This document shows, piece after piece, positions 60,259-62,478 of a stretch of DNA of 64,000 bases. The notes beneath the pieces are model-generated. The model worked only from the letters and a program-made list of their open reading frames with translations. It did not search any database and was not told the DNA's origin. Source of the stretch: Buchnera aphidicola (Pemphigus immunis). Its GTDB lineage: Bacteria; Pseudomonadota; Gammaproteobacteria; Enterobacterales; Enterobacteriaceae. The first letter of the stretch is position 1. Every line of letters begins with the position of its first letter. Location: contig NZ_OZ060408.1 in the NCBI RefSeq assembly GCF_964059115.1, positions 62,001 through 126,000 of the forward strand, written 5' to 3'. The position numbers and the translations under genes were made by a program.

Positions 60259-62478
60259 ATGGATATCTTTGTGTTTATTATACAAGTTGTACTTTTTTTA
60301 CCAATAAAAAAATTTTTTGAATATACTTGTCCTAAAGAAATAATTCCTATTGTTGGTAGTCGTGTATCAGTCCCATTTGGAACGCGAAAAGTAATAGGTA
60401 TGATAGTATCTTTTTACTATCAAATTGGTACAGTACAATTTAGATTAAGATCTATTTATTCTATTATTGATAAATCTCCTATTTACACTCAAAAATTATG
60501 GAAAACGTTAAAATTATCTTCTATTTATTATCATTGTTCAATAGGACATATTTTATGTCATATTTTGCCTACTTTTTTAAAAAAAGGGAAAGTAATTTTT
60601 CCTATACAACTGTATAAATGGACAGTTACTAATAAAGGAAAGAAAATAGATATTAGTATTTTAAAGAGAACTCCAAAACAACATTATGCTTTGTCGGTAT
60701 TGCGTCATCATTCAGTTTTTCAAAATGAATTTAAAAAATATAATTTATCTAATTATGTTTTAAAAAAATTAAAAGATAAATTTTTATGTGATGTATATAT
60801 TTCATCTCATTGGTTTACTAATAGTAAAAAAAAATTTTTAATAAAAGATTTTGATATAAAATTAAATAAAAAAGAATATCTTACCATTGAAAGAATTTTA
60901 AATAAAGGAAGGTATTTTACTTCTTGGTTATTAACAGGTATGAAAAGTACGATAAAACGACAAATATATTTTAATTTAGTATTAAAAATTCTTGAAAGAG
61001 GATTACAAATATTAATTTTAGTTTCAAATGATAATGTTGTGGATCAGGTTATTTCTTTATTTCAAATTTATTTTAATGTACCAATTGATGCATTTTATTC
61101 TGGTACGACTAATTATCAAAAGTTTTCAATATGGTTTAGGGCAAAAAATAATGAAACAGCAGTGATTATAGGTACTAAGAAAGCTATTTTTATTCCTATA
61201 GCTAAATTGGGAATTATTATTATAGATGAAGAACATAGTGTTTCTTATAAAAATAAAAAAGGATGGTGTTATAATGCCAGAGATATAGGAATTTTAAGAG
61301 CTTATCAAGAAAAAATTCCCATAGTATTAGAATCTGTATCGCCTACTTTAGAAACGTTAAAAAATGTTATAAACAAAAAATGTCAACATGTTAATTTACA
61401 TCGAGTTATTTTAGATAAGAAAAAAATAATACAGAAAATAATTGATATTAAAAGTGAAAAGTTAAGAGGAGGCTTATCTATTACTTTAATTAATTCAATT
61501 AATCAACATATTTATAATAATAAAACTGTATTGTTAATTATTAATAATAATAATTGTATTTTTTTTGTTTTATGCTGTAAACATTGCAATTGGATAGCTA
61601 AATGTAATTTATGTAATGAATATTATTATTTTAATGAACATTATCAAGATTTATGTTGTAAATTTTGTTTTGTTAGGTTTTCTGTTCCTTTATTTTGTTT
61701 TAATTGTGGATCTGGAGATTTAATTTCTCGTAGTTTTGGTATAGAAAATATGAAAGTGTCTGTTAAAAGAATATTTTCTAATATACCTGTATTGTGTATT
61801 AATTATATAAGTACAAAATTAAAAAAAAATGTTAATAAAAATGCTTTGCAGCATATGTCGCAAAAAGGAGTTATAATATTAATTAGAGAAAAAGATATTT
61901 ATAGTGTACGTTTATTTGTTAATATAACTTTAGTGGCAATGGTTTTAATTGATTCTTATTTTACGTCTATGACATTTCGTTCTATAGAACGATTTGCTCA
62001 ATTTTATACTCATTCTATTAATTTATTGGATAATTATTCTAAATATTTTGAAGTTTTAATACAAACTACATATCCTAATGATGCTGATTTAAATCAGTTG
62101 ATACAAGAAGGTTATTCTAACCTATCCATTAATTTGTTAAAAAAAAGACAGTTTTTAAAATTACCTCCATTTACTTATCATGTTATGATTTATGTTAAAA
62201 TAAAAAAATCTTGTAAGATAGAAAATCTTTTTTTAATTCTGCAAGATATTATAAAAAATAATAAAAAAGAAAGTAATATAAATATTTGGATGATGGGTAC
62301 TTGTCCTGATTTTTATCAATCTAAAAATGGAAAATACTATGTTCATAAGTTATTATTACAGAGTTCTTCTCGTAATGAATTACATAATGTGTTGCAATTT
62401 AGTATTGATTTTATAAGTATAATTCCTATGTTTCGAAAAATAAAATGGAAATTAGATATAGATCCTATTGATATTTAA
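60259..62478 (+). CDS. priA: primosomal protein PriA with eroded helicase motifs
   Basis: PriA recognises stalled forks and reloads the replication machinery. The 739 residues align with E. coli PriA (732), including the N-terminal fork-binding domain (LPIKKFFEY, GSRVSVPFG, YYHCSIGHILCHILPTFLKKG). All eight zinc cysteines remain (C440/443, 449/452, 467/470, 480/483). The ATPase is damaged: the P loop GVTGSGKT reads GMKSTIKR (227-234), motif III GSATPALE reads ESVSPTLE (358-365), motif V around residue 540 and the QVAGRAGR arginine motif after ERFAQFYT (about 585-592) are gone. DEEH (323-326) survives. Open frame and conserved ends indicate it is still under selection. Confidence 0.93.
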   Translation: MDIFVFIIQVVLFLPIKKFFEYTCPKEIIPIVGSRVSVPFGTRKVIGMIVSFYYQIGTVQFRLRSIYSIIDKSPIYTQKLWKTLKLSSIYYHCSIGHILCHILPTFLKKGKVIFPIQLYKWTVTNKGKKIDISILKRTPKQHYALSVLRHHSVFQNEFKKYNLSNYVLKKLKDKFLCDVYISSHWFTNSKKKFLIKDFDIKLNKKEYLTIERILNKGRYFTSWLLTGMKSTIKRQIYFNLVLKILERGLQILILVSNDNVVDQVISLFQIYFNVPIDAFYSGTTNYQKFSIWFRAKNNETAVIIGTKKAIFIPIAKLGIIIIDEEHSVSYKNKKGWCYNARDIGILRAYQEKIPIVLESVSPTLETLKNVINKKCQHVNLHRVILDKKKIIQKIIDIKSEKLRGGLSITLINSINQHIYNNKTVLLIINNNNCIFFVLCCKHCNWIAKCNLCNEYYYFNEHYQDLCCKFCFVRFSVPLFCFNCGSGDLISRSFGIENMKVSVKRIFSNIPVLCINYISTKLKKNVNKNALQHMSQKGVIILIREKDIYSVRLFVNITLVAMVLIDSYFTSMTFRSIERFAQFYTHSINLLDNYSKYFEVLIQTTYPNDADLNQLIQEGYSNLSINLLKKRQFLKLPPFTYHVMIYVKIKKSCKIENLFLILQDIIKNNKKESNINIWMMGTCPDFYQSKNGKYYVHKLLLQSSSRNELHNVLQFSIDFISIIPMFRKIKWKLDIDPIDI

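Follow-up and report, generated by a model that had tools for sequence, protein, structure and literature searches.

The PriA proteins of Buchnera have lost their helicase motor, and what remains is under purifying selection. Active motor motifs are absent from the priA-bearing Buchnera genomes in our survey, the former motif positions are under a constraint similar to that on other lobe positions, and PriA and DnaT are kept or lost together in almost every genome. Judging from sequence comparisons, Buchnera PriA is probably a pseudohelicase retained to recognize forks and to act as a loading platform.

A PriA homolog without motor motifs

The window, a 64,000-nucleotide stretch of the Buchnera aphidicola (Pemphigus immunis) genome, contains an open reading frame (ORF) that matches the NCBIfam PriA profile PRK05580 with 607 bits, and Escherichia coli PriA (8fak_H) aligns to its residues 8 to 738 (E value of 1.1e-139). 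The homology is full length, covering the 3'-end-binding domain (3'BD), the winged helix, two lobes, the zinc region, and the C-terminal domain (Table 1). AlphaFold predicted a confident fold that matches known PriA structures, a result that was partly imposed because the input alignment was rich in the family; matches to Mfd, RecG, UvrB, and other non-PriA structures (VIA-align) were dismissed as reflecting the shared helicase fold only. We consider GTG 60271 a likelier start than ATG 60259 because it is where relatives begin and because the database protein is 735 aa long; this GTG is codon 5 of the ORF and is aligned with the ATG start of relatives. The gene order nth-priA-tyrS is common to the Buchnera genomes that we compared (G000, G001, G444, G153, G033, and G220).

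Table 1. Positions in the window of the priA ORF and of its domains and motifs
Feature	Position	Strand	Remarks
priA ORF, motorless PriA	60259..62478	+	Open frame, 739 aa; likely start GTG 60271
3'-end-binding domain (residues 1-108)	60259..60582	+	Equivalents of F16 and Y18 retained; E in place of D17
Winged-helix domain (residues 109-181)	60583..60801	+	Absent from 9 other Buchnera ORFs and the G443 split gene
Helicase lobe 1 (residues 209-415)	60883..61503	+	In the window's genus, omega of 0.055
Former Walker A, GMKSTIKR (residues 227-234)	60937..60960	+	Retains Lys 233 but not the P-loop TGSG or the last Thr
Motif II, DEEH (residues 323-326)	61225..61236	+	Intact in window; Asp lost in 27/27 sister-genus ORFs
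Former motif III, ESVSP vs GSATP (residues 358-362)	61330..61344	+	Motif alignment
Cysteine-rich zinc region (residues 440-483)	61576..61707	+	8/8 Cys
Former motif V (residues 540-553)	61876..61917	+	Motif alignment
Former motif VI, HSINLLDN vs QVAGRAGR (residues 585-592)	62011..62034	+	Motif alignment
C-terminal domain (residues 638-738)	62170..62472	+	Domain and E. coli PriA alignment

Five motifs are eroded in the window: Walker A (GVTGSGKT to GMKSTIKR), motif III (SATP to SVSP), motif IV (FLNRRG to IINNNN), motif V (ILIGTQMLAKGH to ILIREKDIYSVR), and motif VI, where QVAGRAGR has become HSINLLDN and both arginines are gone. The marks of an active superfamily 2 motor, a Walker A of the form GxTGSGKT and motifs V and VI with their arginines, are thus missing from the window PriA. 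The initial annotation of this DNA had reported the altered Walker A, the erosion of motifs III and V, the replacement of the arginine motif by SINLLDN, and the retention of eight zinc cysteines, all of which our alignment bears out. Its statement that the fork-binding N-terminal parts also align holds at the level of the fold; the 3'-end pocket residues D17 and K61 have changed to E and R, respectively. Across the 39 Buchnera ORFs that are full length or lack only the winged helix, D17 is altered in every one (E in seven) and the eight zinc cysteines are present in every one.

Two elements of the nucleotide-binding site persist. The lysine at position 233 (60955 to 60957), equivalent to the Walker lysine K230 of E. 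coli, is present although the surrounding P-loop is gone; it is kept in 38 of the 39 ORFs and is R in the remaining one. While Walker A is lost in all Buchnera PriA examined, Walker B is intact in the window, and its DEEH is kept in three of four ORFs of the window's genus. These two remnants would favor a residual activity in which PriA of that genus binds or slowly hydrolyzes ATP as a switch, but the loss in the window of the P-loop TGSG, the following threonine, motif V, and the two arginines of motif VI, together with the loss of the motif II aspartate in the sister genus (Table 1), makes such a switch very improbable. We do not claim that the ATP cleft is packed with hydrophobic residues, as AT-rich codon drift could yield a similar pattern.

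Distribution of motorless PriA

Our sample comprised 76 Buchnera genomes placed in a tree, although other Buchnera species surely exist; genomes were assigned to Buchnera when groEL, efp, and dnaC lay together on a stretch of about 4 kb and by tree placement, with three of them having no EFP ORF match. The priA gene is present in 52, a remnant in one (G021), and neither in 23. Absence was scored from a one-query search in which 28 misses were deduced from genomes missing among the matches listed, and it was rechecked with the window PriA as the query in eight genomes; a priA profile search at an E value of 1 in 26 genomes, including two that are not in the tree (G295 and G362), matched only G021. 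All 52 priA-bearing genomes lack the motor motifs, and motor loss is therefore a trait of all priA-bearing Buchnera examined and not a peculiarity of the window strain. The same loss recurring throughout the alignment across Buchnera lineages that the initial annotation had proposed places it beyond chance. The motor was probably gone before the living Buchnera lineages split, a single ancestral loss being the simplest account.

The 52 copies include 30 full ORFs, 9 in-frame losses of the winged helix, and 13 genes split by frameshifts. The nine winged-helix losses are in sister-genus Buchnera (L084 to L088, L136 to L138, and L038), with ORFs of 662 to 693 aa. Twelve of the split genes consist of long open pieces separated by a single frame change, and G430 has several breaks; an initial reading of "many stops" in sister genes as pseudogenization was accordingly dropped. 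The breaks fall between about residues 101 and 218, in the winged helix and linker, in 10 of 13 cases, and elsewhere near residue 560 (G427), near residue 262 (G443), and at several places (G430). Runs of 7 to 15 A or T occur at every junction, and in the 30 full ORFs, A/T runs of 8 or more are found at 8.4 per kb between residues 101 and 218 compared to 3.1 per kb elsewhere, so that slips are expected to cluster in this region. Splits near long A/T runs in the stretch joining the N-terminal domain to the helicase lobes were seen in many lineages (L074, L077, L078, L081, L082, L036, L131, L127, L152, and L126). These frameshifts may be assembly errors, may be rescued by slippage, or may be real losses, and we therefore counted split genes both as present and as lost; one Buchnera study is reported to have found no transcription error restoring a frame (PMC5574713).

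Small-genome symbionts of genus g117 (L153, L154, L156, and L157) and G008 (L144), which we judged to be non-Buchnera, also carry a motorless PriA with zinc cysteines. Assignment of g117 to Buchnera was abandoned, two g117 genomes having RecA and no match for DnaC or DnaT. Motor loss may be recurrent.

Selection on priA

We estimated omega (dN/dS) with codon models on fixed trees for 4 genomes of the window's genus and for 12 of 18 full-length sister-genus genomes, evaluating the omega 1 null at three kappa values. Whole-gene omega was 0.071 in the window's genus and 0.119 in the sister genus, and that of the individual domains, linker aside, was 0.019 to 0.103 and 0.079 to 0.134, respectively (0.055 to 0.134 for the helicase lobes), with likelihood ratios against an omega of 1 above 60 for domains other than the linker. 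The linker itself had an omega of 0.247 in the sister genus and did not converge in the window's genus, where it has 27 codons. Control values for the same two groups were 0.059 and 0.054 (EFP), 0.010 and 0.013 (DnaC), and 0.056 and 0.118 (DnaT). The 40 columns of the former motifs had omega values of 0.046 and 0.108, next to 0.065 and 0.122 for the other lobe columns; by likelihood ratio, the motif-column and whole-gene values also lie far from 1. Close pairs weigh more here because long branches saturate; with ORFs taken from stop to stop, including a few codons 5' of the start, YN00 gave 0.12 to 0.21 for the 6 of 8 pairs that were computable, and the cruder NG86 gave 0.19 to 0.51 for all 8. 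In a neutral simulation, 1 percent of ORFs were still free of stops after 50 substitutions and none of 300 after 100, and the window priA differs from its nearest relative at 172 sites. Selection therefore acts on the entire protein. The body of Buchnera PriA, former motif positions included, is under purifying selection.

Constraint has also been redistributed among the domains. Where the winged helix is present in Buchnera ORFs, the 3'-end domain evolves at 0.76 to 0.94 of the gene mean, compared to 1.53 in free-living PriA, and is thus relatively more conserved, whereas lobe 1 is alike in both (0.78 to 0.83 versus 0.76), and lobe 2 (0.92 to 1.12 versus 0.64) and the zinc region (0.84 to 1.06 versus 0.75) are relaxed. 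The corresponding fractions in the set without the winged helix are 1.09 (3'-end domain), 0.87 (lobe 1), 0.88 (lobe 2), and 1.12 (zinc region).

These data bear on the possibility that priA is a decaying relic, functionless and open through inertia on its way to loss. Its loss from 24 of the 76 genomes, the 13 frameshifted copies, the further 9 without a winged helix, and the two genomes with DnaT and no PriA all fit such a course, and sister-strain frameshifts were one of two signs of decay that the initial annotation had named. The other, a dN/dS near 1 across the gene, as expected of a pseudogene under relaxed selection, was not found: omega values of 0.02 to 0.13 in all domains but the linker with their likelihood ratios, the low values in close pairs by YN00 (though higher by NG86), the 30 full ORFs across lineages, and the specific coupling to DnaT described below make a relic quite improbable, and simple decay was rejected on omega, close pairs, and the neutral simulation. 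The annotation's view that the motor was lost and the rest retained is therefore upheld by the selection data, with the addition that motif II and Lys 233 are intact as well.

Coupling of PriA and DnaT

PriA and DnaT states agree in 74 of the 76 Buchnera genomes: 52 encode both, 22 neither, 2 DnaT only (G021 and G133), and none PriA only, such that DnaT is found in every priA-bearing genome and in 2 of the 24 others. DnaT was scored with its own DnaT-DnaC query, and adjacency was checked. DnaC is present in all 76 genomes. With E. coli queries in 30 Buchnera genomes, DnaC was found in 30 and DnaT in 24, while PriB, PriC, and RecA were found in none at an E value of 0.1, a search in which a diverged PriB might be missed. 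A loss-only two-trait model that starts from a root with both genes preferred dependence between PriA and DnaT (LR of 20.9, P = 2.9e-5), also when split priA genes were counted as lost (LR of 9.3, P = 0.0098). Joint loss is placed at about four points (g45; G255 and G325; g138 and g11; g88 and g155), a count made uncertain by weak support at several deep nodes of the tree, which was built from three proteins including DnaC; G153, a genus-mate of G255 and G325, keeps both genes.

The association is specific. In a control set of 30 genomes drawn from the 76 (priA present in 12, split in 4 of these, and absent from 18), DnaT was present in 12 of 12 priA-bearing genomes and 2 of 18 others (Fisher P = 1e-6; LR of 16.2, P = 3e-4), and Nth, RsxC, CysK, MutS, and RecC had no association with priA (Fisher P = 0.26 to 0.69; phylogenetic P = 0.13 to 0.54). 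These control genes were scored by hand, with weak or displaced matches (MutY-like in the case of Nth, short in the cases of CysK and RsxC) taken as absent, as was the MutS of G211, which is broken. Two 400-kb genomes with no clear match to Nth, RsxC, CysK, or MutS (G086 and G215) retain PriA and DnaT.

The shared losses of PriA and DnaT suggest that PriA survives as a docking platform for the restart of DNA copying, the role proposed in the initial annotation. The platform reading draws on the absence of the motor from all 52 copies, the conserved zinc cysteines, the low omega, the coupling to DnaT, the mostly changed PriB dock, the predicted fold, and a precedent in Deinococcus radiodurans (see below); against it stand the 13 frameshifted copies, the weaker P value when these are counted as lost, the relaxation of the zinc region and lobe 2, and the uniformly altered D17. 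Under this reading, the 3'-end domain, the DNA loop of lobe 1, the zinc region, and the C-terminal domain would clamp an abandoned fork, DnaT would dock directly onto PriA with no need for PriB, and DnaT would then hand DnaC-DnaB over to the lagging strand. Having no motor, PriA would serve only forks whose lagging arm is already single stranded, or else would depend on another helicase. The PriB dock on PriA is mostly changed in the 39 Buchnera ORFs, with His483 kept in none, Thr482 and an acidic residue at position 438 in one each, and Ser481 in 12; of the PriA-PriB-DnaT preprimosome, PriB itself had no match in the 30 genomes searched.

Alternatively, PriA may have been repurposed as a passive binder of forks or single-stranded DNA (ssDNA) that, for example, shields forks, blocks the replicase, or takes part in initiation in a cell without RecA, and not as a DnaT loader. 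The former motif positions, constrained like the rest of the lobes and carrying new residues, would fit this, as would three motorless PriA proteins from outside Buchnera (G122, G371, and G008) in genomes with no detectable DnaT or DnaC, of which G122 and G371 retain RecA. Likewise, Moranella endobia is reported to have priAB and to lack dnaT and dnaC (PMC3620526), and PriA therefore need not act via DnaT everywhere. These cases also tell against the platform role as a general rule for motorless PriA. In Buchnera, the close match of DnaT and PriA states, with DnaT never absent where PriA is present, renders repurposing unlikely.

Comparison with known systems

A motorless natural PriA is already known: that of D. 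radiodurans has failed Walker motifs and no ATPase or unwinding activity, was called a pseudohelicase in 2015, and still binds ssDNA, forks, and DnaB (PMC4504706). Buchnera PriA is likewise a natural PriA with a degraded Walker A motif; however, the Walker lysine is replaced by arginine in D. radiodurans and kept in Buchnera, where the P-loop and motifs V and VI are lost, and priB and dnaT have no clear homologs in D. radiodurans, whereas Buchnera has kept DnaT. As Buchnera is a proteobacterium, its motor loss is presumably independent. The E. coli K230R substitution, as recounted in the D. radiodurans study, turns the motor off and retains primosome assembly (PMC4504706). It is a single laboratory change, in contrast to the five eroded motifs and the additional lack of detectable PriB and PriC in Buchnera. 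The initial annotation had likened the window PriA to a natural counterpart of this mutant, an equivalence that fails at the residue itself, since the K230-equivalent lysine is kept and D. radiodurans is the closer parallel. The K230R allele is named priA300.

In E. coli, PriA is described as clamping forks, a pore being formed by the swing of its zinc region, and the docking site for DnaT as comprising lobe 2 of PriA together with its C-terminal domain (PMC10175261, PMC13377028). The PriA domains, DnaT, and DnaC of the preprimosome portrayed there are common to Buchnera, which differs in the missing PriB, the mostly changed dock residues, and the absence of a motor. A literature search covering mainly open-access papers found nothing on motor loss in Buchnera PriA or on co-loss of PriA and DnaT; as far as it shows, the Buchnera-wide motor loss with DnaT kept, the selection on dead lobes, the co-loss, and the DnaC lead described below are new. 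These findings speak to the standing question of whether the PriA motor is needed outside the laboratory: selection on a motorless PriA and the absence of DnaT from 22 of the 24 PriA-less genomes suggest that being a platform is, by itself, reason enough to retain PriA. They also make testable a natural minimal restart pathway of PriA, DnaT, DnaC, and DnaB that would operate without PriB, PriC, and RecA.

DnaC in genomes without PriA

The E. coli alleles dnaC809 (E176G) and dnaC820 (K178N) are described as bypassing PriA (PMC11087952), and DnaC residues 174 to 180 were inspected because of these alleles. In the 52 PriA-bearing Buchnera, T175 is found in 51, E176 in 52, and R178 in 51, the exception at 175 being G220, which has a split priA. 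Among the 22 genomes with neither PriA nor DnaT, position 175 differs in 14, E176 in 4, and R178 in 8, 3 of which have K as in E. coli; PriA-less G160 and G387 have N178, as in dnaC820. When 242 four-residue windows are ranked by how far change in PriA-less lineages exceeds that in the others, residues 175 to 178 come first (16 versus 2 parsimony events, nominal P = 0.002), with no window significant after correction for all windows; positions 176 and 178 (8 versus 1 events together) were preselected, while 175 (8 versus 1) and the window edges were not. Relative to the dnaC809 and dnaC809,820 alleles (PMC11087952), the excess of change is greatest around the same residues, but E176G itself was absent from the PriA-less Buchnera examined, there was no excess at the bypass sites 184 and 225 or at site 84, which blocks the pathway, and the PriA-less genomes G255 and G325 and those of g138 have no change at 175 to 178. 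We regard the excess as a lead and not a result.

A tentative scenario, which we consider possible but doubtful, is that the Buchnera ancestor lost PriB, PriC, RecA, and the PriA motor and used a bare PriA-DnaT-DnaC loader, after which about four lineages would have dropped PriA and DnaT, several of them altering DnaC at its known priA-bypass site (175 to 178) to load DnaB alone; Buchnera would then have reached in steps, in nature, what geneticists achieved with E. coli in the laboratory. Such a natural escape from PriA-DnaT restart via DnaC is also testable. The 175-to-178 region can be seen in PriA-less DnaC loci such as L229, L231, L236, L239, and L240.
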